A stretch of DNA of 64,000 nt from Pontederia crassipes (Eukaryota; Streptophyta; Magnoliopsida; Commelinales; Pontederiaceae): assembly GCA_030549335.1 (NCBI GenBank), contig CM060183.1, positions 34,160,768-34,224,767 on the forward strand, given 5' to 3'. Both the position numbers and the translations under genes were made by a program. Positions 9,946 through 61,499 of the stretch are shown piece by piece (position 1 is the first letter of the stretch; each line of letters opens with the position of its first letter). The notes under the pieces are model-generated. The model worked only from the letters and a program-made list of their open reading frames with translations, ran no database searches and had not been told where the DNA came from.

Positions 9946-10379
9946 TCTTGAGGACAAGGTCCTCTCATTCATCGCATGAGAGAAACATATAGATCATATA
10001 ATATAATGGATCAATGTGAAGGATCAATAAAAGCATCATGAGCACTTGCTCATCATTCATGTTCTTTCGTTCATCTTGGAAGTATTCATTCGTTCGTACT
10101 TTCGTACGTTCATTCATTCATTCACTTATTCATTTTTTCATTCATTTTTTGGAAGAGCTCTTCATTCCTTTAGGTAATATCATTACCTGCATTTGTAGTG
10201 CTACTATCTAGATCATTATGAATCAGTGAGTGATTAGTGCCACGGCCAGCCCTGTCGAGCTGGGATGATATCGTACAAAGAGGAAACATCCGTAAGGGAG
10301 AAACTCCCATCTAGATATGACAAATGGTAACCTGTGAGGGAGTGCCTTGCTTAGGGCTTGCTCAACTTCCCCCATCATA

Positions 10380-10562
10380 GTGGACTTTTCTTTCAATCCA
10401 AAGATCGATCAAGGTCGTATGGAGCAAAGCTCCGTATCATGTGGACATATCTTTCAATCTGTAAATTGGTCAAGACCATATGGAGTAAAGCTCTGAATCC
10501 TGTGGACCTATCTCCCAATCCGTAGATTGGTCAAGGCCGTATGGAGCAAAGCTCCGACTCTT
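10380..10562. repeat. Three 61-bp tandem units
   Basis: GTGGAC starts at 10380, 10441 and 10502 mark three diverged units. Each ends in a TATGGAGYAAAGCTC-type motif. The same triplet occurs in copy B at 20489, 20550 and 20610. Confidence 0.85.
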
Positions 10563-12837
10563 CTTTAAGTTCATTTCATTATTTAACAATAAGGTGGACA
10601 AAAGTTTTATAAATCAGAGGAGTTCGATTTGAGTCATGTTCTCTTCTGTTCACACAACGGTTGATCATTAGTAAAATGATCGTTCGTTGTAAGTCTATTC
10701 AGCAGTCGTCCGATAGGAGAAAATAGACGCTCATTCATTAGTCTTTCGGTCGACCGAAGAGGTAGCGGTCAACCATTTGATGTTCAATCTTCATTCATTT
10801 CATGATCATATTCGTTCAACTTCAATCAAGTGGACGGAAGCTTACTAAATCAGAATGGTCGGTTAAAGTTGTATTCTTCCCGTCCACATAACGTACGCCC
10901 GAAAGTCGAGGGTCATCCGCTTTGGATCCATTCAGCGGTCATCCGAAAGAGGGCGGACGCTCATTTATTACTATTCTACAATCGACCGAAAAGGAAGTGG
11001 TCGACCATTCTGTATTTATTTTTTGTTCATTTCATTGATCATATTCTTTCGATCACTTAGATCAATCAAGTTGGTAGGGAGCAGGAGTGGCTCCAAGTCG
11101 TCTTTAACAATCATGTCATTCAATACCAATCAAGTGGACAGAGGCTTGTTGAATCATGAGGTTTGATTTAAGGTCACATTTCCCTCTGTCCATAAATCGA
11201 AGGACCGAAAGGTTAGCGATCGTCCGTTTGAGATTCATCGTTGATCGTTCGAAAGAGGTTCTGACGTTCGTTTATCAATATCCATCGGTTGACAGGAAGA
11301 GTGAGGTTGTCCGTCATAGCTTGTGAATATCCTTGGACTTCCGATCGAGAGTTTCGGACGGCCGACGGTCCACTATACTCTACCATTCGATAATGGACGC
11401 CCGGGATCAGTCGACCGTTTCTACTAGGTAGAACTGTAGGTCATTTGTGAAAGTCTTTACGTTCCAATTGATTTTCGAAACACTACATTCTATAATTAAT
11501 TCCGATCTATATCTAAGATTAACTATCATCCAGAGAACGTTCAAACAAAGTTTATATTCATTTCATGCATCATATCTCCTTTGCTTCATTCATAGCTTTC
11601 TCCATTTCCATATCATACTTTAGTTTATTGTCATGTCATGCATTATTTTCCTTTTCATACAACTAGCCATCTTCTTAACTTGACATCAATTCATAACTCA
11701 TCATTAGGTCTTTAACAAGAATCATCACTTCGTACATGCATATCATTATCATTCTTAACCACATATCCTAACCAACTAATAAGAATTAAAGTACAAAACC
11801 ACAACCTGACTTCTACAATCTTAAACATGTATAATCATATGAGAAGAACTTCTAATATGGAGGATTAAGCAATCATATGACAGCAATTCTCCAACTTAGA
11901 AGTCATCTAATCGGTGCATCATTTGATAACATATAAGCGTTCATATCTTGGTAACATATCATGGCATTAACCAACTTCTTCTTATCATAATTCCAATAAC
12001 TTGACATGCATTTCATTATAACATCATAATGCATCAACCTCTTTCTCCCTATTCGTTCTATTGCTCATTTCATTCGATAATAAATCAGGTGGACAGAGGC
12101 TTGACAAATCAGAGGGTTCGATTAGAGTCGAATTCCTTCTATCCACGTACTGAATGCTCGGAAGTCAACCGGTCGTTCGTCTTTAGATCTTTTCAGTGGT
12201 CGTCCGAAGAGGGAGCGGACGACCGTTTGTCATTTCGTAGTGGCTCATCATTGTTCTTCATGTGGTTCATGAGAGTCATCACCATTCATCATTCATGAAA
12301 GATCATATCAAGTTGACATCACATTCTATCAGTTCCGTTTGATCAGAAGAAAGGATAACATAGTTCTGTTGGGCATAATTCACTTCGTAGAAAGATCAGA
12401 TATTAAATACGTAAATAAGAGTCCATAAATCATAAGATTATCAATGGTCAGGACCCAAGCCGAGTACAGAAAAACTCGGGCTGAGTTCTTGACTGAATCA
12501 AACTCGGAATCAGGGTCATACCCGAGCCGAGCTGTGTGCGCGATCGGATCGAAAAAGTCGAGCCGCCCGATCGTCTTCTCTGATCGATACCCGAGTCGGA
12601 TCAGGCAGAGCCTGGGACGGGTTACTGGTGTGAGTCGAGCTCGGGTCGATCGTCAACGGCGGATCCGAGTCGAGTTGGAAAGGACTCGGTCCGGGGTGAT
12701 ATGATTCGGACCGGGTTATGGTGTAATTTTATGTGCGACGTCGGAGCATGCCACGTTAGACGACTATTTGTGTGGATGAGAGAGGAGATGGCCACGTGGA
12801 CGTCACGTCGACGAAAAACCGAAAAATTGGCTATCTC

Positions 12838-12955
12838 AGGTAAAGAGGGCATCGGGTGAAATGCGTTAAAAGATGAAGGACATTTGTGTTACAAAGTGAA
12901 GTTGGAGGATATCGCTGAGCAAATCTTAAATCGGAGGGCATTTGGTGTAATTTAC
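12838..12955. mobile_element. Lone MULE-like terminal inverted repeat
   Basis: This stretch, beginning AGGTAAAGAGGGCATCGGG and ending TTTGGTGTAATTT, matches the right-hand terminal repeat of the MITE at 31158-31764. No opposite-facing partner is found to its left, so it is a single surviving end. The equivalent in copy B is 22557-22675. Confidence 0.7.
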
Positions 12956-12965
12956 CCTAAAAAGA

Positions 12966-13145
12966 AGTGGATGCCTCTATCTCTACCTACGTAGTACGTA
13001 CGTCCCAGCGGGTCATGTCGGAGAGGGTGGTGTGTATTTATCATCTTCGGTTAATCGACGACAAAATATTTATAAAATTGACTCATCAACAGACGAGATC
13101 AATCTTTATCATTATCATCTTCTACAAAGCATGCACTTATAATTT
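12966..13145 (+). repeat. BURP-unit upstream module
   Basis: This module, with GGATGCCTCTATCTC, then GGTGTGTATT and ATTGACTCATCAAC, aligns by eye with 16025-16180 upstream of BURP unit 1 and less closely with 35035-35170 upstream of unit 3. It is nearly identical to 22686-22865. It marks remnants of the duplicated BURP neighbourhood rather than a gene of its own. Confidence 0.55.
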
Positions 13146-17275: not shown

Positions 17276-18572
17276 ATGGCAGGCTTGCTCACTACTATTT
17301 TCCACTTGCTCCTGATCTCTGTAAGATTACATAAAAGATAGATCTCGTTCTCTAATAAACTTTTCACGTATATCGAAGTTTTTTTTAAAATTTTTAAACT
17401 TAAGTTTCATTTACGTAATACGCTTTTTATGAAAAAAAAATCATACAAAGGCGTTTTCAATTTATTCATGCTTGTTCATTGTTCATTATTATTAGCTCGT
17501 AGCTGTGAGCCATGCAGCAACGACTCCGGAGGAATATTGGTACTTAATTCTTCCGAACACCCCCATTCCAAATGCCATCAAAGATATTCTAAATACTGGT
17601 AATTGTTCCCTGTTTTTACGCATATGCAGAATGTGTATACATGCTACAAATTTGTTTGATCTGTGCTTAAAATTTGTATACCAAGAGAAAATGGTGCCCA
17701 ATCCAGGTTGAAGTTTCTTATTACTTAATTAATTGCAAAAAAAGAGTTTTGATTTTGCAGGTGAGAGGCAAAACCTCCACGTTGACGACGGAGAATTCAG
17801 AAAATATTTTATCGACAAGAACGTCAACTACAACTATCGTTTTCGTTACGGGCCTCCTAGAGCTTCCTCAGCCGGTGATAATATGGAGGTCTTAAGGCCT
17901 CACTCCGACCCAAGCATCAGTTTATACTTCAAGGAGGAGGACCTCCTCAGGCCTGGTGCCAAGATGAACTTTGTCTTCCCCAGAATCAACTACGGGGTCA
18001 CCTTCCTCTCCCGTCAAAGCGCGGAATCCATCCCCTTCTCGTCGGCAAGGCTTTCCGTGATCTTTAGCCGCTTCTCCATAGAGCCTACATCCGCGTTGGC
18101 CAAGTACGTGACAGATTCGCTGATCAAGTGCGATCTGCCGGAGGAAGAAGGGGAGACGAAGTTCTGTGCCACCTCCCTCGAATCCATGGTGGACTTCAGC
18201 ACCAGCATCCTCGGGACGAACCAAGTGGAGGCGCACTCTACCGTGGTGATCAGTAAGGAGGACATGGAGAAACCTGAGCTGTTCTCCGTTACTGGAACCC
18301 GCAGGCTCGGCGGTGAAAAGTCGGTGACGTGCCATGAAGCGGTCTACCCGTACGCCGTGTTCTACTGCCATACGTTCCCGTCCAGAGCGTACGTCGCGGA
18401 GTTGGCGGGGGAGGAGGGCACGAGGGTGGAGGCGGCGGTGGCGTGCCACACCGACACCAAGGCGTGGAGTCCTGACCACGAGGCTTTCGAGATGCTGAAG
18501 GTGAAGCCTGGACAGGCGACCATCTGTCACTTTCTTCCACGAAATGACCTCATCTTCAGCCGCAACATTTAG
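17276..18572 (+). CDS. BURP-domain protein, intact (unit 1)
   Basis: Three exons are read: 17276-17320, 17496-17598 and 17761-18572. All introns are GT-AG, and the 960-nt CDS gives 319 residues. Residues 1-23 form a hydrophobic signal peptide (MAGLLTTIFHLLLIS continuing into exon 2). Next comes the conserved BURP N-terminal segment PEEYW...LPNTPIPNAI. A linker without RD22-type repeats follows, then the BURP domain from about residue 103 (SLYFKEEDLLRPG). The four Cys-His pairs fall at 240/241, 252/253, 278/279 and 305/306, giving CH-X10-CH-X24-CH-X25-CH, close to the family pattern, and the protein ends soon after CHFLP. BURP proteins are plant-specific and secreted or cell-wall associated. 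The short form resembles BNM2/USP-like members, but the function is not known from sequence. Exon 3 is far more GC-rich than its surroundings. It is the only uninterrupted copy of the array. Confidence 0.93.
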
Positions 18573-20054: not shown

Positions 20055-22865
20055 TCTTGAGGACAAGGTCCTCTCATTCATCGCATGAGACAAACATATA
20101 GATTATATAATATAATGGATCAATATGAAGGATCAATAAAAGCATCATGAGCACTTGCTCATCATTCATGTTCTTTCGTTCATCTTGGAAGTATTCATTC
20201 GTTCGTACTTTCGTACGTTCATTCATTCATTCACTTATTCATTTTTTCATTCATTTTTTGGAAGAGCTCTTCATTCCTTTAGGTAATATCATTGCCTGCA
20301 TTTGTAGTGCTACTATCTAGATCATTATGAATCAGTGAGTGATTAGTGCCACGGCCAGCCCTGTCGAGCTGGGATGACATCGTACAAAGAGGAAACATCC
20401 GTAAGGGAGAAACTCCCATCTAGATAGGACAAATGGTAACCCATGAGGGAGTGCCTTGCTTAGGGCTTGCTCAACTTCCCCCATCATAGTGGACTTTTCT
20501 TTCAATCCAAAGATCGATCAAGGTCGTATGGAGCAAAGCTCCGTATCATGTGGACATATCTTTCAATCTGTAAATTGGTCAAGACCATATGGAGTAAAGC
20601 TCCGAATCCTATGGACCTATCTCCCAATCCGTAGATTGGTCAAGGCCGTATGGAGCAAAGCTCCGACTCTTCTTTAAGTTCATTTCATTATTTAACAATA
20701 AGGTGGACAGAAGTTTTATAAATCAGAGGAGTTCGATTTGAGTCATGTTCTCTTCTGTTCACACAACGGTTGTTCATTAGTAAAATGATCGTTCGTTGTA
20801 AGTCTATTCAGCAGTCGTCCGATAGGAGAAAATAGACGCTCATTCATTAGTCTTTCGGTCGACCGAAGAGGTAGCGGTCAACCATTTGATGTTCAATCTT
20901 CATTCATTTCATGATCATATTCGTTCAACTTCAATCAAGTGGACGGAAGCTTACTAAATCAGAAGGGTCGGTTAAAGTTGTATTCTTCCCGTCCACATAA
21001 CGTACGCCCGAAGAGTGAGGTCATCCATCATAACTTGTGAATATCCTTGGACTTCCGATCGAGAGTTTCGGACGGCCGACGGTCCACTATACTCTACCAT
21101 TCGATAACGGACGCCCGGGATCAGTCGACCGTTTCTACTAGGTAGAACTGTAGGTCATTTGTGAAAGTCTTTACTTTCCAATTGGTTTTCGAAACACTAT
21201 ATTCTATAATTAATTCCGATCTACATCTAAGATTAACTATCATCCAGAGAACGTTCAAACAAAGTTTATATTCATTTCATGCATCATATCTCCTTTGCTT
21301 CATTCATAGCTTTGTCCATTTCCATATCATACTTTAGTTTATTGTCATGTCATGCATTATTTTCCTTTTCATACAACTAGCCATCTTCTTAAATTGACAT
21401 CAATTCATAACTCATCATTAGGTCTTTAACAAGAATCATCACTTCGTACATGCCTATCCTTATCATTCTTAACCACATATCCTAACCAACTAATAAGAAT
21501 TAAAGTACAAAACCACAACCTGACTTCTACAATCTTAAACATGTATAATCATATGAGAAGAACTTCTAATACGGAGGATTAAGCAATCATATGGCAGCAA
21601 TTCTCCAACTTAGAAGTCATCTAATCAGTGCATCATTTGATAACATATAAGCGTTCATATCTTGGTAACATATCATGGCATTAACCAACTTCTTCTTATC
21701 ATAATTCCAATAACTTGACATGCATTTCATTATAACATCATAATGCATCAACCTCTTTCTCCCTATTCGTTCTATTGCTCATTTCATTCGATAATAAATC
21801 AGGTGGACAGAGGCTTGACAAATCAGAGGGTTCGATTAGAGTCGAATTCCTTCTGTCCACGTACTGAATGCTCGGAAGTCAACCGGTCGTTCGTCTTTAG
21901 ATCTTTTCAGTGGTCGTCCGAAGAGGGAGCGGACGACCGTTTGTCATTTCGTAGTGGCTCATCATTGTTCTTCATGTGGTTCATGAGAGTCATCACCATT
22001 CATCATTCATGAAAGATCATATCAAGTTGACATCACATTCTATCAGTTCCGTTTGATCAGAAGAAAGGATAACATAGTTCTGTTGGGCATAATTCACTTC
22101 GTAGAAAGATCAGATATTAAATACGTAAATAAGAGTCCATAAATCATAAGATTATCAATGGTCAGGACCCAAGCCGAGTACAGAAAAACTCGGGCTGAGT
22201 TCTTGACTGAATCAAACTCGGAAATTCCGAGTGGGAACCCTGGCTGAGTCAGGGTCATACCTGGCCGAGCTGTGTGCGCGATCGGATCGAAAAAGTCGAG
22301 CCGCCCGATCGTCTTCTCCGATCGATACCCGAGTCAGATCAGGCAGAGCCTGGGACGGGTTACTGGTGTGAGTCGACCCCGGGTCGATCGTCAATGGCGG
22401 ATCTGGGTCGAGTTGGGAAGGACTCGGTCCGGGGTGATATGATTCGGACCGGGTTATGGTGTAATTTTATGTGCGACGTCGGAGCATGCCACGTTGGACG
22501 ACTATTTGCGTGGATGAGAGAGGAGATGGCCACGTGGACGAAAAACTGGCTATCTCAGGTAAAGAGAGCATCGGGTGAAACGCGTTAAAAGATGAAGGAC
22601 ATTTTTGTTATAAAGTGAAATTGGAGGGTATCACTGAGCAAATCTTAAAGTTGGATGGCATTTGGTGTAATTTATCCTAAAAAGAAGTGGATGCCTCTAT
22701 CTCTACCTACGTAGTACGTACGTCCCTGCGGGTCATGTCGGAGAGGGTGGTGTGTATTTATCATCTTCGGTTAATCGACGACAAAATATTTATAAAATTG
22801 ACTCATCAACAGACGAGATCGATCTTTATCATTATCATCTTCTACAAAGCATGCACTTATAATTT
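20055..22865. repeat. Segmental duplication, copy B
   Basis: Direct copy of 9946-13145. Compared with copy A it lacks about 390 bp near 21012 (the junction is after CGTACGCCCGAA), has about 25 extra bp near 22222 and lacks about a dozen bp near 22540. Other differences are scattered single bases. It ends abruptly at 22865, inside its BURP-upstream module, where a truncated LTR begins, whereas copy A continues into unrelated sequence. No gene is supported; the 89-residue open frame at 21743-22012 is conserved with 12029-12298 only because the copies are young. Confidence 0.9.
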
Positions 22866-28651: not shown

Positions 28652-28954
28652 CTTATTGTGCACGCGAAAAGTCGATCCTGAGACGCAGCTCCGTTGTGTC
28701 GTTTCAATTGATGTCTTGATAGCCAAGGTTTTTCTTTCCCGATTGTCGCCCCAGTACTCGGGGAGCATGGTAGCTAGATGCATTGGTGAGATTGGAGTCT
28801 TGATTTATTATCGAACACGATTAATTTGACATCATTCTAAGTTATGATGGATATAACTTAACTTTTTTATGTTTAAGAGTTCGAATTCTGGTTGTTATCT
28901 AAACGCGGAGAATTTACTTACCATTCCAATATTCCAATCCAACTCTACATCTCT
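28652..28954. other. Unassigned sequence
   Basis: No gene or element is recognised between the copia LTR and the BURP fragment. Confidence 0.45.
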
Positions 28955-29209
28955 GTTGTCCAAGTACCAGATAAATACTCTGACCAAGTGCGAACTGACG
29001 CGTAGGGGGAGACGAAGCACTGCGCCACCCCCCTCGAGTCCATGGTCGACTTTACGGCCAGCAGCCTCGGGACGAACCAAGTCCAGGCGTCTCTACCGTC
29101 GTGATCAGTAAAATTGACGAGAAGGAATTGGAGTTAATTGTTCTCCGTTACTGGAACTGGCAGGCTCGACGGCGACAAATTGGTGTCCTGCCATGAAGAG
29201 GTCTATCCG
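28955..29209 (+). pseudogene. BURP-domain gene fragment (unit 2)
   Basis: This piece aligns with the middle of exon 3 of units 1 and 5, from the CCAAGTGCGA region (Ala-Lys-Cys-Glu) through GGGGAGACGAAG, CCTCGAGTCCATGGTCGAC, GGGACGAACCAAGTCCAGG and TCTCCGTTACTGGAAC to CTGCCATGAAGAGG, the first Cys-His pair. It is nearer to unit 5 than to unit 1 by eye. Small deletions (for example at ACGCGTAGGGGGAG) and insertions break the frame. It stops exactly where a TGTTAGAACTT LTR-like sequence begins. Its upstream half is missing; copy B ends at 22865 with a BURP promoter-side module, so copia 1 and the small LTR element now occupy the gap. Confidence 0.88.
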
Positions 29210-38717: not shown

Positions 38718-40494
38718 CACTACAAGAAAATCACAATTTTCCGACGGATAATTTTCGACGGTTCTAAATCCGTCGCAATTTGCGATGGATTTTTCGACGG
38801 TTCCGTTTTCGACGGATTTTTCGACGGTTATGACCGTCGGAAATAATTTATATTATTATTTAATTTTTCGACGATTAGGAACGTCGATATTTTCGACGGA
38901 TATCCATCCGTCGTAATTTCCGACGACTTTTCCGACGGTTATGACCGTCGAAAATAAAAAAATTAAATTATGTATTTTTTATATTATTATTAAATGTTTT
39001 CGACGGATTTTCCGATGGTCAAGACCGTCGGAAATAAAAAAATTAATTATATAATTTATTATATTATTATTTAATTTTTCGACGATTAGGACCGTCGATA
39101 TTTCCGACGGATATCCAACCGTCGCAATTTCCGACGACTTTTCCGACGGTTATGACCGTCGGAAATAAAAAAATTAAATTATGTATTTTTTATATTATTA
39201 TTAAATGTTTTCGACGGATTTTTCGACGGTCAAGACCGTCGAAAATAAAAAAATTAATTATATAATTTATTATATTATTATTTAATTTTTTGACGATTAG
39301 GACCGTCGATATTTCCGACGGATATCCAACCGTCGCAAAATCTGTCGCAATTACCGACAGTCAAAACCGTCGGTAAAATAAAAAATAAATATTATATATA
39401 ACTAAATATATTTTCGACGGTCACAACCGTCGATAATTATAAAAATATTTAATATTTACGTTTTCGACGGCCGCAACCGTCGATAATTAAAATTTCGTTA
39501 TCCCGCTTTTTTTTTCCTTTTTCCCGCTTTCTTTCCACTTTTTCCCTTTATATATATTCCTCATTCATCTTCTCTCTCCCTCTTCCCTCTTCCCTCTTCC
39601 CTCTTCTCTCTCTCCCTCCTCCCTCCACTCCTCTCCTCTCTCTCTCTCCCGGCCGCGAGCACCCCTCCCGCCCGTCGGACGCCGACGACCATCCCACGCC
39701 GGACGCCGGCGACCCTCTCCCGCACCGGCGTATCTCTCTCTCCCGCTCCGCGCCGGCGTCTCTCTCTCTGCTGTCGGCCGGCCGGAGGCCGGATCCGGCT
39801 GTGGCCATTCGGATCCGGCCTCCAGCGGCCGGATCGGCAGCCAGGCGGTCGGATCCGGCCTCCAGCGGCCGGATCGGCCGCCCAGCTGCCGGATCGGCCT
39901 CCAGGCGGCCGGATCCGGCCTCCAGCGACCGGATCCGGCCTCCGGATCCAGCCTCCAGCGGCCAGATCCGAACGCCAAGCGGCCGGATCCGGCCGCTAAT
40001 TTTTTTATATTTAAAAAATTATTTGCGACGGTTGCGACCGTCTAAAGATCGACGGTGCGATGTCCGTCCAAAGTTTCGACAATTGAGACCGTCGAAAAGT
40101 TACGATGGCTCGAACCACTGGCCTTTTCCGGCGGTTGCAACCGTCGGAAATATCCACGGTTCGAACCGCCGGCCTTTTCCGACGGTTGCAATCATCGGAA
40201 ATATCGACGGTTCTAATCGTCGGAAATATCGACAGTTCGAACCGCCGGGCACTTTTCCGGCGGTTGCAACCGTCGAAAAATTTCGACGGGTCGAACCGTC
40301 GGGGACTTTTTCGACGGCCAGAACCGTCGATATTTGCGACGGATTTTTTTGAGCCGTCGCAAGTCCATTTGCGACGAGCGTTTTTTCGACGGATCGATTC
40401 CGACTAAAAAACTATCGGTAATTGCGTTACCGACGGTTTTCGGACTGATTACCGACGGTCCGGACCGTCGGTAATCCGTGTTTTTCTAGTAGTG
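38718..40494. mobile_element. Non-autonomous CACTA element, 1777 bp
   Basis: It begins CACTACAAGAAAA and ends TTTTTCTAGTAGTG, and is flanked by the 3-bp duplication TGA (38715-38717 and 40495-40497), as expected for CACTA transposons. Both subterminal regions are packed with palindromes of the type CGACGG...CCGTCG. The left arm carries a tandem duplication with a period of about 211 bp (about 38880-39300). The middle has a TATA/CT-rich stretch (about 39545-39660) and tandem GGCCGGATCCGGCC motifs. No transposase is encoded; the Arg/Gly-rich open frames at 39548-40407 reflect composition. Confidence 0.93.
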
Positions 40495-45110: not shown

Positions 45111-45795
45111 ATGGCAGGCTTCTTCACCACTATATTCCACTTGTTCCTGATCTCTGTAAGAATAATATATAGGAGACGTCTATAATTCTCTAATAAACTT
45201 TTGCTTCGTCACATATATCAAAGTATTTTTGTTTATAAACTTAGGTTTCATTTACGAAGTACCTTTTTTCATGAAAAATATCGATACAAATGCGCTCTAA
45301 ACTTTTATTGATTGCTTGTTCATTGTTCATTATTATTAGCTCGTAGCTGTGAGCCATGCAGCAAGAACTCCGGAGGATTATTGGCACTCGGTCCTTCCAC
45401 ACACACGTGTTCCAAATGCCATTAAAGATGTTCTAAATCCTGGTAATTATTCCCTGCGTGCATCTATGTTATATACTTCAAATTTATTTGATTTATGCTT
45501 AAAATTATAATTATATACCAAGAGAAAATGGTGCCTAATTCAGAGTGTTTCTGCAGGTGAGAAGCAATACTTCCACGTCGACAACGAAGAATACATAAAA
45601 CTCTTTAACGATAATTTTAAGTGGGCACGGGACAACTCATCAGATGATTATATGGACCTCATACGGTCTCACTCCCTCATAAGCATCAGTTTATACATCA
45701 TTGAAGAGGACGTCCTCAGGCCTGGTGCCAAGATGAACTTTCTTACGGGGTCACCTTCCTCTCCCGTCAAAGCGCGGAATCCTGTTAACATTTAG
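45111..45795 (+). pseudogene. BURP gene truncated by an LTR (unit 3)
   Basis: Exon 1 (45111-45155) and exon 2 (45340-45442) have the same lengths and GT-AG sites as in unit 1 and encode a signal peptide (MAGFFTTIFHLFLIS) and RTPEDYWHSVLPHTRVPNAI. Exon 3 (from 45557) is homologous up to the EEDVLRPGAKM segment. Then 16 bp are missing relative to unit 1, which shifts the frame. Homology stops after GCGGAATCC at 45782, where TGTTAACA of a copia LTR starts. Translation would run four codons into the LTR and stop at TAG (45793-45795), giving 128 residues. The whole Cys-His part of the BURP domain is lost and is not found beyond the insertion. Confidence 0.9.
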
Positions 45796-52429: not shown

Positions 52430-53808
52430 TTGGTTGCCTTGCCACCCATGAATAGAACTGCTTGGAGTTAGAGACTCCTATCTCAAACCCTATAAAGTAT
52501 TAAACATGGACTCAAAAAGCACATTGGTAATGGCCTGGGCACTCATGCATATTACGACCCACGGATTTTTAATATTCATCTAAGTCATATGCCTACTTAT
52601 ATAATTGTTCAGCCTCCAATTGTTTCTCTCTCACTCTGCATGGAATTTTGATATGCTTATGAACTATTTTTGCTCACTATCTTATAGATGAGATTCAATG
52701 TATTAAATTACCTTTTTTCCTCTATGATGATTCTTGGGTGTGGGCCTCGAAAAATTCTGGAATTGCTACTACTAAGGCAGTTAATAACTTTATAAGTAGG
52801 CGTCCTGTGCCACCTAGGCATGCTAGATGGCCGGGTTGGAGATTTATATGGTGCATCAACATTCCCCCTAAGATAAAAATTTTTCTTTTGAAATTGACTC
52901 ATAACCGTCTCCCTACTAAACATCTACTTGCAAACTTCATTCATTCTGTGAACCCTGCTTGCCCTCTTTGTGTTATTGGCCTTGAAACTAACATTCATCT
53001 TTTCTTCGACTGTTCTGTGACTTTTCAAATTTAGAATATGTTTTGATCCCATACTGATTACTATTTCAAGTTTATTCCCACTTGGAAGGAGGGGGACTGG
53101 ATTAAGGAGGGATGTAACCTCATGACCATACCCATCGTTCTCAACTTCTCACCCTTTTTTCTCTATCTCTATAGGGAATCTGGAAGATGAGGAATGATGC
53201 CCATTTTAGCTCCATTCAGGCAACCATTGCTGTGGTCTGGTCGCGAGTTAAAGCCTCCTATTATGAGATACAAATACCCTATACTTCTGAGTGGACTTCC
53301 TCCACGAACCATCCCCTGATTCGTTGGGAGCCTTCACCTCAATCCTGGTTCAAACTGAACTTGGATGGCTCTTTTCTAAGGAACTTTGGGGTGGGAGAGC
53401 AAGCTTCATAGTTAGAGCTTCTAACATTGAGTTTATCTCTGCAGGGGCATTGTATAACTAATTCCATTCTGCCTTGGAAAGCGAAGGCTGGGCCATCCGT
53501 AGCGGGCTACTGCACTATCATCGCCGGGGCATCACTCATATCCTCCTTGAGACAGATTCTCAGCTTGCAGTCCATATTATCACCAACATGTCTCGCCTTA
53601 ATAGCATATTCAATGATATCACAATCTGTTGCTGTTTGCACACTTTAAATGAAGACATGTATCCCAGTTAACAAATGTGGAGGCTGATTCTTTAGCATCT
53701 TTTAGTAGAAGATCGCGTATCGATCAATTATTGTCATCCTTGGGGCTTCCACCAGTTTTTGTGTCATGACGTTATTGACTAATCTAATCCTATCATCCAT
53801 TAAAAAAA
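52430..53808 (+). mobile_element. LINE (L1-type) 3' fragment
   Basis: In mixed frames there is a zinc-binding RT region (zf-RVT): WRFIWCINIPPKIKIFLLKL, HNRLPTKHLL and NPACPLCVIGLETNIHLFFDC. It is followed by a plant-type RNase H with WFKLNLDGSF and, frameshifted, AESEGWAI-like, HRRGITHILLETDSQLAV and VEADSLASF-like residues. The 3' end is a short A-rich tail in CATTAAAAAAAG at about 53800. This is the usual 3' end of a plant L1 LINE, 5'-truncated and decayed. It abuts the broken 5' side of copia 2. Confidence 0.85.
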
Positions 53809-53885
53809 GTAAGTGATTAATTAGTTTAGCTTATACATTAATTAGTTGGCAAGTTCAAACTTTTTTTTTCAATTTATATACTTAC

Positions 53886-54715
53886 TTTCATCAATACTAT
53901 AATCAAAAGAGAATTGTGATGCTAGTCCTTCCAACACTTTCTTCTCTTTACCCGTTGGATTTTTCTTTGGTTGGGCTGATGACAAAAATGACGAGGAAGA
54001 GATCTGGTTAACTAATTTAATTCAAACATTAATTAATTGATGGGTTAAGGCTTTCTTTTTCAATTTGTATATTTACTTTCATCAATACTATAGTCAAAAG
54101 AGAGTTCTGATGTTAGTCCTTTCAACATTTTCTTCTCTTGACCTGTGGACGGGCTGACGACAAATAATTAAGATCAGGTAAAGATTTGATTAAGTAATTA
54201 ATTTAGCTCAGACATTAACTAGTTGACAAGCTAAAAATTTCCCTTACATTTTACATACTTACTTTCAGCAATGCTATAGTCAAAAGAGAATCCTGAGATT
54301 AGTCCTTTCAAAATTTTCTCATCTTTACCCGCTGAATTTTTCTTTGGATGGGCTGATGACAAATGGTTAAGAGGAAGAGATTCAATTAATTAAGTAACTA
54401 ATTGAGTTTAGGTATTAATCAATTCACATGTTAAGACCTTATTTTTCAACTTATATGCTTACTTTCATCAGTGCTGTAGTCGAAAGAGAATTTTGACGCC
54501 GGTCCTTTCAAGATTTTCTTCTCTTCACCTGTTGGATTTTCCTTTGGACGGTCTGATGACAAATAATTAAGACGAAGATATTCGATAAAGTAATTAATTT
54601 AGCTCAGGTACTAATTAATTGATAGGTTAAATTTTATCTTTTTCAATTTATATACTTACCTTCATCAATACTCGCATTTTCTTCTTTGTACCTGCTGAAT
54701 TTCTCTTTGGACCAG
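53886..54715 (-). pseudogene. Tandem array of 90-bp phase-1 exons (BURP unit 4)
   Basis: On the minus strand at least five units repeat with a period of 186-200 bp. Each has a CAG acceptor, an exon and a GTAAG/GTAAA donor. The exons are 54715-54660 (56 bp, deleted), 54552-54463 (90), 54352-54263 (90), 54153-54077 (77, a 13-bp deletion) and 53975-53886 (90). The three 90-bp exons are open and encode similar 30-residue repeats: QPKKNPTGKEKK, HPKKNSAGKDEK or RPKENPTGEEKK, then a Leu/Gly segment and FSFDYS. Each begins with two bases completing a codon and ends with one base, so any number can be joined in frame. BURP exon 2 ends, and exon 3 begins, in exactly that phase. I infer spacer exons of a minus-strand BURP gene whose exon 2 remnant is at 56836-56894. 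I know no protein family for the repeat itself. Confidence 0.62.
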
Positions 54716-55466
54716 CTGACGACAAATTAATAATTACGAGGAAGAAATTAAAGTAAGTAAGTAATTAACATTTCTCGACCATTAATTAATTAATTGTTAT
54801 GATAAGACTTTTTTTATATATAATTCATATACTTACTTCCTATTTATGATTTTATCATAATATTTATGATAAGACCTTACTTCCTGCTGAGTTTCCTCGT
54901 GAGTCCAACCTCACTATGTGTTATCATAATATTATCGGCCTTCTTTATCCATTGCTCTCTTTTACTCAAATGATTCTATGCTCACTATCTGATTATGATA
55001 AAATGTTTATTGATTTTGACTCATCCTATTTAATAGTTATGCATTGAATATTTATATTGATTTTCCACTAGGCTGTAAAGCTTACGGGAGGATCTCCTCT
55101 CCTATGTTTGATTTTCACACGACCATGTCAGTAATGATGTTGAGATCGTGTGTTGCGACAGATCTCAGGCAATGACATAATACATGAACTAAAGGGCCTT
55201 ATTATCTAGTTTTATTCTTTCGCTATTATTTCGTAATTATGAACATTGATGTAATTTCGATAATACTCTACCTTGAGATTTCGTAATGACCTTTCCAACT
55301 TCTGTCAATTATGTTATTATCTATTCTTCTCTTTATATTATCGTTGAGGTGTTAATATTCTTGACTAAGTTTGAGTCTATATAATGATCAAAGTCATAAT
55401 GCTGATAGCGCTTTTAGATTGATCTTTGTCACGTGGGATTGATCGATTTTGAGGCATTACACTACA
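54716..55466. other. Decayed sequence between exon array and CACTA
   Basis: A further partial unit (ACTTACTTCC at about 54831, and CTTCCTGCTGAGTTTC at about 54890) suggests a sixth, broken repeat. From 54900 to 55466 I recognise nothing, apart from a short palindromic ATTTATGAT/ATCATAAAT stretch near 54840-54875. Confidence 0.4.
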
Positions 55467-56783
55467 CACTACAAGAAAATCGCGATTTTCCGACAGATAA
55501 TTTTCGACGGTTCTAAATCCGTCGAAATTTGCAACGGATTTTTTGACGGTTCGGTTTTCGACGGATTTTTCGACGGTTATGACCGTCGGAAATAATTTAT
55601 ATTATTATTTAATTTTTTGACGATTAGGAACGTCGATATTTTTGATGGATATCCATCCGTCGTAATTTCCGACGACTTTTCCGACGGTTACGACCGTCGG
55701 AAATAAAAAAAATAAATTATATATTTTTAATATTATTATTAAATGTTTTCGACAGATTTTCCGACAGTCACGACTGTCGGAAATTAAAAAAATTAATTAT
55801 ATAACCTATTATATTATTATTTAATTTTTCGATGATTAGGAACGTCGATATTTCCGACGGATATCCATCCGTCACAATTTCCGAAGGTCATAACCGTCGG
55901 TAATTAAAAATAAATATTATATATAACTAAATAAAATAAAAATATTTATTATTTACGTTTTCGACGGCCGAAACCGTCGGTAATTAAAATTTCGTTATCC
56001 CGCTTTTTTTTTCCTTTTCCCGCTTTCTTTCTACTTTTTTCTTTTATATATTTTCCCTCATCCCTCTTCTCTCTCCCTCCTCCCTTCACTCCTCTCTCTC
56101 TCCCTCCTCTCCTCTCTCCCTCTCCCGGCCGCGAGCACCGGATCGGCCTCTCCCGCTCGCCGGACGCCGGCGATCCTCCCACGCCGGACGCCGACGACCC
56201 TCTCCCGCACCGACATATCTCTCTCTCCCGCTCCGCGCCGGCATCTCTCTCTCTCTGCTGTCGGCCGGATCCAGCCGTGGCTGTTCGGATCCGGCCGCCG
56301 GGCTGCCGGATCCGGCCTCCAACGGCCGGATCGGCCGTCAGCGGATCCGGCCGCTAATTTTTTTTATATTTAAAAAATTATTTGCGATGGTTGCGACCGT
56401 CAAAAGATCGACGGTTGCGACGCCCGTCCAAAGTTTCAACAGTTGGGACCGTCGAAAAGTTGCGACAGCTCGGACCGCCGGCCTTTTCCGACAGTTGCAA
56501 CCGTCGGAAATATCGACGGTTCGGACCGCCGGCCTTTTCCGGCTGTTGCAACCGTCGGAAATATCGACGGGTCGAACCGCCGGGGACTATTCCGACGGCC
56601 AGAACCGTCGATATTTTCGACGAATTTTTTTCAACCGTCGCAAATCCGTTTGCGACGAGCGTTTTTCCGACGGATCGATTCCGACTAAAAAATCGTCGGT
56701 AATTGCGTTACCGATGATTTTCGGGCTGATTACCGACTTTTCGGACCGTCGGACCGTCGGTAATGCACGTTTTTCTAATAGTG
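55467..56783. mobile_element. Non-autonomous CACTA element, 1317 bp
   Basis: It starts CACTACAAGAAAA and ends TTTTTCTAATAGTG, with the 3-bp duplication ACA at 55464-55466 and 56784-56786. The arms and GC-rich core are closely similar to 38718-40494, but it lacks the extra 211-bp left-arm repeat and part of the GGCCGGATC array. It has the same dense CGACGG/CCGTCG palindromes and no transposase. It sits between exon 2 and the repeated exons of BURP unit 4. Confidence 0.93.
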
Positions 56784-59828: not shown

Positions 59829-61499
59829 ATGGCACCCTTGCTCACCACTACTTTCTTCTTGCTCCTCATCTGTGTAAGAATATAGTGGGAGACAGGGCTC
59901 TATATGTTTCCCTAATAAATTCTTGCTTATTTCGTGCGTATATATAGTAATCTTAAACTTATTTTTCGATTTTTTTAAAAAAAGTTTCAACACCAATTTG
60001 TTTTCTTTATTTATGATTCGATACTTGTTCGTTAATGTTTGTATATTACAGCTCGTAGATGTGGGCCATGCAGCAACGACTCCGGAGGAATATTGGCACG
60101 CAGTTCTTCCAAACACCCCAATTCCAAATGCCATTAGAGATATTATAAATACCGGTAAAATGGCATTTAAGTATATACTTAAATTTGTTTGTTGACCAGA
60201 TATATCAAGACAAGATTGTGTCTTATTCAGATTGGAGTTAAATTTCCTTGTTTCTTAGAGCCCAACAAAGAATACATGTGCATAATTATATAAGACAATT
60301 GTAATTATTTAATGAATACTGCATGCATGTCCTGATTCCTGCATTACCTTTTTTTGCATATAATAGAGAATGATGTTATTTTACCTATAGACTTGAATAT
60401 TTAAGATAGTTGATTGCACATTTAGCTTAACACATATCTTGTTAGTTAAATAAAACAACGTATGGACTGGTATTATCTGTTCCCTGTGTTCACATATATT
60501 CAGAATTTGTATTTCTACACTTAAATTTTTTTTTTTCTGATAAATTAATACAAACTGCATGGTGCCTTATTCAGATTGGAGCTAACTTGCTTATTACCCA
60601 AAAATGATTTAGTACAGCTTATACATAATGCCTTTAATTATACAAGGACACATATAATAATTACAATCCTGAATGGGTCTCCATGCACTTTGTTTCTGCA
60701 GGTGGCAAGCAGCAAAACTTCCACGTCGATGACGAAAAATACAGAGAACTTTTTTTCGACCCTAACACCGCATATAACACCAACTATAGACCTCGTAAGG
60801 CCTCCTCCTCAGGTGAAGATATAGTTCACTACGACCCAAGCATCAATTATTTCTTCGAGGAGGAGGACCTCCTCCAGCCTGGTGCCAAGATGAACTTTCC
60901 CTTCCCCCAGAAGCGACTACGGGATCACCTTCCTCTCCCGTCAAGACGCCCAATCCATCCCCTTCTCCTCCTCCAGACTGCCCGAGATCTTTACCCGCTT
61001 CTCCATAGCCCCCAAATCCGCGCTGGCGAAGTACGTCATAAATACGCTGGCCAAGTGCGAGCTGCCGGACGCGTTCGGGGAGACGAAGCTCTGCGCCACC
61101 TCCCTCGAGTCCATGGTCGACTTCGCCACCGGCAGCCTCGGGACGAATCAAGTCCAGGCGCTCTCTACCGTCGTGATCAGTAAGGAGGACAAGAAGGAGC
61201 CGGTGCTATTCTCCATTGCTGGAACGCGCAGGCTCCACGGCGACAACATGGTTGCGTGCCACGAAGAGGCCTACCCGTACGCCGTGTTCTACTGCCATGC
61301 CTTCGCCGCCAGAGGATACGTCGCGCAGTTGGTGGGAGAGGACGGCACGAGGGTGGAGGCGGTGGTGACGTGCCACACCGAAACCAAGGGTTGGAGCCCT
61401 GACCATATGGCTTTCAAGATCCTGAAGGTGAAGCCTGGACAAGCGACCATCTGTCACTTTCTTCCACGAATTGACCTCATGTTCAGCCGCAGCATTTAG
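59829..61499 (+). pseudogene. BURP-domain gene with a 1-bp frameshift (unit 5)
   Basis: The exons are 59829-59873, 60052-60154 and 60702-61499, with GT-AG introns at the same places and phases as in unit 1; intron 2 is about 547 bp. Exon 1 encodes the signal peptide MAPLLTTTFFLLLIC and exon 2 TPEEYWHAVLPNTPIPNAI. In exon 3 the frame is open to FPFP, then the run at 60904-60908 has five C where unit 1 has four, and the frame shifts. After that point the original frame continues unbroken to the stop, with all four pairs in CHEEAYPYAVFYCH, the third CH and ICHFLP. Without the extra base the length would be 314 residues. It could be a young pseudogene, or a functional gene with a homopolymer error in the assembly. 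Confidence 0.9.

Follow-up and report, generated by a model that had tools for sequence, protein, structure and literature searches.

Repeat-bearing genes of the BURP and ST families

According to excerpts from PMC6102523, BURP genes are plant-specific, the BURP domain lies at the C-terminus with the form CH-x10-CH-x23-27-CH-x23-26-CH, and repeats can be present between a short conserved segment and this domain: a repeat motif occurs 2-8 times in 18 of 25 RD22-like proteins, and OsRAFTIN contains its own repeat twice. In rice, the same excerpts list a BURP gene of 18 exons (LOC_Os06g19800). The N-terminal consensus of BURP proteins, Ax6YWx7PMP, is akin to the common region of ST/SST proteins, and ST/SST and BURP genes co-localise; ST genes hold their repeat region inside the second exon, with repeats of 25-26 residues that contain EFEPRPxxxxY, and SST genes of the ST/SST type are reported to be absent from monocots (all from portions of PMC11991032). 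A class of cyclic peptides from plants that has been recognised only recently has BURP proteins as both its precursors and its cyclases (PMC11253845, in excerpt). The cores of cyclopeptide alkaloids comprise 4-5 residues and end in Tyr; split precursors carry them in their repeats, and repeated cores are likewise present in fused ones, for example SkrBURP (excerpts of PMC11253845, PMC11250218 and PMC12186524). The recognition stretch before the core has a hydrophobic residue at position -7 between charges (PMC11250218, PMC12186524, the same excerpts).

Among the literature matches listed, as far as their excerpts extend, none describes a BURP or burpitide gene whose repeats each occupy an exon of their own, and a literature search on tandem exon duplication in plants found no papers. 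In other eukaryotic genes, symmetric exons, which have equal phase at both ends, can multiply together with their intron without a change of frame.

The array described here lies on the minus strand of a 64-kb stretch of Pontederia crassipes DNA, which was analysed as a whole and is called the window below. Like BURP genes with repeats (PF03181: RD22-like, RAFTIN, PG1-beta, SkrBURP, KjaBURP), the locus shows a W-x7-PMP leader and then tandem repeats, and where the fused burpitide precursors (SkrBURP, KjaBURP) bear cores with Tyr or Trp in their repeats, the array repeats bear FSFDY. Unlike in PF03181 genes, each array repeat is a symmetric exon of its own without a Pfam family, and no BURP domain is left. 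With ST proteins and split precursors (PF10950, DUF2775; ArbA2, CamA1) the locus has in common a similar leader module and tandem repeats of about 25-30 residues, and also a Tyr-ended core and BURP genes nearby; as in the recognition stretches of ArbA2 and CamA1, position -7 is hydrophobic and positions -9 and -6 are charged, although the overall likeness to published recognition sequences is not significant. The array repeat differs from those of ST proteins in its length of 30 residues and in being placed one per exon, and EFEPRPxxxxY is missing; given this exon layout, the missing motif and the lack of a PF10950 match, we rejected membership of the array repeats in the ST/organ-specific family. 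In placing each repeat in its own exon, the array shows a variant of the BURP/ST repeat gene for which the literature excerpts gave no description, and compared with tandemly duplicated symmetric exons elsewhere, the array exon may be special in carrying one complete precursor cassette.

A tandem array of exon-intron units

Exon reading and alignment place five copies of an exon plus intron head-to-tail in one array at 54715-53886 (Table 1). The introns from E1 to E5 measure 107, 110, 109 and 101 bp and the donor-to-donor spacing of the units is 197, 200, 186 and 191 bp; measured inside the exons the spacing spreads from 163 to 200 bp because of exon deletions. The first-pass annotation had proposed five or six units of about 190 bp, each with an acceptor, an exon and a GTAAG-type donor, and we indeed find five, together with the intron copy of a sixth. 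It had also counted three open exons of exactly 90 bp, phase 1-1, with similar 30-residue repeats: these are E2, E3 and E5, which translate to RPKENPTGEEKKILKGPASKFSFDYSTDE, HPKKNSAGKDEKILKGLISGFSFDYSIAE and QPKKNPTGKEKKVLEGLASQFSFDYSIDE. Its two deletions of 34 bp and 13 bp agree with the lengths and the alignment of E1 and E4.

In the 90-bp exons the phase-1 frame alone is open, with 1-5 stops in the two other frames of each. An acceptor-like CCACAG lies 11 bp inside E4; its use gives a 66-bp exon (54142-54077) in phase 1-1 that is likewise open in the phase-1 frame only, so that the 13-bp deletion, earlier read as decay, may have left the frame alive. The acceptor TTTGTC(A/G)TCAG has five occurrences on the two strands of the window, each directly 5' of one array exon, and all six introns begin with GTAAG or GTAAA. 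An nhmmer profile of the unit found the five array units in the 64-kb window with E 3e-57 to 1e-36, values that are partly by construction as the profile was built from those same units; up to E 10 it returned nothing else in the window except the sixth intron copy. The latter (54716-54840) reached E 5e-10 with this unit model, built without it, and E 4e-17 with an intron model that included it. The intron model also matched the intron after E5 (53812-53885, E 8.5e-10). The tandem array is confirmed as more than a chance pattern.

Table 1. Positions of the array, the leader exon, the BURP copies and the mobile elements in the window.
Feature	Position	Strand	Description
BURP-A	17276-18572	+	intact, three exons, 319 aa, signal-like hydrophobic start, four CH motifs
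BURP fragment	28866-29209	+	broken
BURP-C	45111-45782	+	broken; truncated near 45782
LINE remnant	52663-53808	+	recognised from 52663 on; ends in intron after E5
Intron after E5, 5' part	53885-53809	-	cut off beside A run of plus-strand LINE
E5	53975-53886	-	90 bp, phase 1-1, open; followed by donor GTAAGTAT
E4	54153-54077	-	77 bp, 13-bp deletion
E3	54352-54263	-	90 bp, phase 1-1, open
E2	54552-54463	-	90 bp, phase 1-1, open
E1	54715-54660	-	56 bp; 34-bp deletion removes FSFDY segment, frame shifted
Sixth unit, intron copy	54716-54836	-	exon not recognisable; donor GTAAGTAT at 54836
CACTA-type element	55467-56783	+	1317 bp, between leader exon and array
Leader exon 2, 3' half	56894-56837	-	WHSVLPNTPMPKAIRDILT + G, ends in phase 1; 5' half not recognisable
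BURP-D	59829-61499	+	frameshift at about 60900

A BURP-type leader exon upstream of the array

Upstream of the array and on the same strand lies a remnant of 58 bp that is 84% identical to exon 2 of BURP-D over 50 bp (blastn, E 2.6e-9). Its tblastn score was 36.2 bits, compared with at most 23.9 in 30 block-shuffled windows, and it is the sole minus-strand match with E < 0.1 to the BURP proteins and leader peptides searched; searches with whole-gene DNA gave further minus-strand matches (E 7e-4 to 0.003), which we read as AT-rich intron or low-complexity sequence. Of the published consensus Ax6YWx7PMP the remnant retains W-x7-PMP, whereas the part ahead of the W was not found. The remnant ends in the same phase 1 as in BURP-A, C and D, at a donor-like GTCTGC that is poorer than their GTAA. 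Neither the 5' half of the leader exon nor exon 1 of the array gene was found in the window by blastn and tblastn. Joined together, the leader, E2, E3, E4 (with the internal acceptor) and E5 form a single open frame of 131 residues.

On account of the leader match, phase 1 and this joint frame we take the array to be part of a gene headed by a BURP-type leader. The array probably (roughly 0.62) represents the surviving repeats of a minus-strand gene whose BURP leader module resembles the ST (PF10950) leader. A Pfam search of the 131-residue frame returned no match to BURP or PF10950, and no BURP domain is present on the minus strand of the window (best match to a BURP query E 2.2), which may be a loss because the gene is truncated. 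The repeat itself has no PDB match, no Pfam family and no PF10950 match; the Pfam rows for TarS_C2 (E 0.2) and Glyco_transf_88 (E 0.095) are below their own cut-offs and were taken as chance. The earlier statement that no described family is known thus holds for the repeat and fails for the upstream exon, a BURP-family leader. It had also been considered that the unit could be a dispersed satellite outside any gene, which is unlikely because a BURP leader lies upstream on the same strand and in the same phase and no other copy exists within the 64-kb window.

BURP copies on the plus strand

Pfam, tblastn and exon reading together gave four BURP copies in the window, all on the plus strand and one of them intact; BURP-A is the only copy without a visible lesion. 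Pfam reports two BURP domains (E 3e-68 and 3e-65, plus strand). In BURP-A, C and D alike, exon 1 measures 45 bp and exon 2 103 bp, and the intron that precedes the BURP exon is in phase 1; the four CH motifs stand with a spacing of 10/24/25 in BURP-A and in the downstream piece of BURP-D. BURP-A matches the solved BURP domain 8sy2 with E 2.5e-22, and its leader reads Ax6YWx7PIP. Searches for relatives of BURP-A gave 4 pattern stretches in IMG/VR and 29 in bacterial and archaeal genomes, none of them confirmed, and the same was true for 19 pattern stretches found in IMG/VR with the joined 131-residue frame.

Directly before the BURP domains of A and D we noted Tyr-rich stretches (17761-17900 and 60702-60830, plus strand), YNYRFRYG and FFDPNTAYNTNY, which could be single cores. 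BURP-A is flanked by a direct duplication (9946-13145 and 20055-22865) that aligns in two pieces, one over 974 bp with 98% identity and the other over 1876 bp with 95%.

Mobile elements and truncation of the array gene

The CACTA-type element between the leader exon and the array has the left end CACTACAAGAAAA and the right end TTTTTCTAATAGTG, which form an imperfect inverted repeat with ACA on both flanks; judged by its size it is taken as non-autonomous. A second, related CACTA-type element starts at 38718 (plus strand), 74-86% alike in the matching stretches, and both contain CCGACGG-rich repeats. The LINE remnant was recognised by Pfam matches to zf-RVT (E 3.9e-15, 52663-53034) and RVT_3 (E 3.3e-6, 53462-53671) and ends with seven A on the plus strand (53802-53808); no LINE target duplication was found. 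Since E5 has a good donor, at least one further exon probably once followed it and was lost.

The array copy is a pseudogene or gene fragment. It had been called "now decaying" from its deletions, which stand; this understated its state, as the leader half is lost, a CACTA-type element separates leader and array, a LINE reaches into the intron after E5 and the minus strand of the window holds no BURP domain. The locus suggests that a precursor gene grew by exon copies and was afterwards cut up by mobile DNA.

Conservation of the repeats and a possible precursor function

Exon identity is 77-82% over the three pairs of 90-bp exons and 82-89% between their last 66 bp and E4, and intron identity is 68-80% over six pairs. 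From these exon (77-89%) and intron identities it follows that the array copies are well diverged, with an exon likeness only slightly above the intron likeness; dN/dS across six exon pairs ranges from 0.20 to 1.42. SFDYS is invariant in all four repeats that retain it (E1 has lost it), and (F/L)SFDY is accordingly a Tyr-bearing core candidate in four of the five repeat exons. Of the five columns that vary in the FSFDYS codons, four are third codon positions (enrichment relative to the rest of the repeat, p 0.11). Directly ahead of (F/L)SFDY, each of the four repeats has a different residue (K, G, E, Q), and with FSFDY as the core all four have Leu at -7 and Lys at -9. An invariant SFDYS after a variable residue fits a core peptide, which is only suggestive, and a Tyr or Trp in the repeat core is necessary and not sufficient for a burpitide precursor. 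The likeness of recognition stretch and core to four published peptides was not significant in eight comparisons (permutation fractions 0.035 to 0.47). In the literature matches listed, and in the excerpts that they give, FSFDYS appears only in a kinesin paper.

How such an array could have arisen and functioned can be outlined from its layout. Exon and intron recur together as one unit, and the symmetric phase 1-1 keeps the frame for any number of intact copies; given the phase-1 end of the leader, the phase 1-1 exons and the joint copying of exon and intron, each intact added copy contributes 30 residues without a frameshift. The first-pass annotation had likewise suggested a gene that grew a repeat domain by exon duplication, and the tandem duplication of the exon-intron unit with its symmetric exons is in line with this. 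Each exon would provide one Tyr-ended core (FSFDY) together with a charged stretch that resembles a recognition sequence, such as KEKKVLEGLASQ, and cross-linking would fall either to a BURP domain that formerly followed in the same protein (fused) or to the cyclase of a neighbouring BURP gene (split). We infer tentatively, and with the odds against it, that the repeats may have been a multi-core precursor region of this kind, cross-linked by BURP, with one recognition stretch and one core per exon. The stronger version, in which every symmetric exon would be a complete cassette of recognition stretch and core and the number of cores would be set by exon duplication, loss and possibly skipping, is rather doubtful. 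The cyclic-peptide reading of FSFDY is a reasonable hypothesis, not a result, and a structural repeat as in RD22 or RAFTIN is as likely. The array copy has lost both of its ends and sits amid transposons, so that it probably makes no such protein now.

Alternative explanations

A serious contender, at somewhat less than even odds, is a BURP gene of the RD22 or RAFTIN kind, with structural or cell-wall repeats from which nothing is excised or cyclised. In Arabidopsis RD22 the BURP domain is preceded by a segment of the form F-x-Y-x-Y, and the array repeats gave no significant match to a recognition sequence. Repeats are known from this kind of protein, namely from the 18 of 25 RD22-like proteins and the two copies in OsRAFTIN noted above (PMC6102523, in excerpt), and what speaks for a core instead, a fixed SFDYS in four repeats behind a residue that differs in all four, is suggestive only. 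This explanation and the following one overlap with the assignment to a BURP-leader gene preferred here, and the weights that we give them are not exclusive.

On the unlikely side we place a stand-alone split precursor without a BURP domain of its own, which would serve adjacent BURP cyclases. Such a gene would account for the lack of a BURP domain after the array, yet the good donor of E5 makes a further exon likely, and a lost BURP exon accounts for this equally well. PF10950 gives weak matches, below its cut-off, to the leaders of BURP-A and BURP-D (E 0.047 and 0.025). The excerpts of PMC11991032 weigh on both sides: the co-localisation and the similar N-terminal consensus of BURP and ST/SST genes are in favour, but the repeats of ST genes contain EFEPRPxxxxY and are encoded in the second exon, unlike the array repeats, and SST genes of the ST/SST type are reportedly missing in monocots.

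It is improbable that the array stems from an unrelated repeat gene and that the leader fragment came to lie beside it by chance in a region rich in BURP genes. The fragment is short (58 bp), 801 bp separate it from the first repeat even when the CACTA-type element is left out of the count, and the joined fragment has a GC3 of 0.37 where BURP-A has 0.70; against this, the strand, order and phase of the leader are all right, and no other minus-strand protein match has E < 0.1. A non-coding tandem repeat with accidental splice signals and open frames, for which the nearly equal conservation of exons and introns might speak, can hardly explain GTAAG/GTAAA donors at six introns, one shared acceptor before all five exons and a phase-1 frame that alone is open in four exons and in frame with the leader exon.

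Implications for BURP precursor genes

As 18 exons have been reported for a BURP gene of rice, existing annotations may already include genes that have a separate exon for each repeat, and LOC_Os06g19800 may be built like the gene from which the array derives. Because the array copy is broken, its value is that of a pointer to intact relatives. If a BURP-leader gene with one core per exon is the true origin of the array, this layout would explain how cores are gained and lost without frameshifts, and such precursors would be hidden from searches that rely on single open reading frames.
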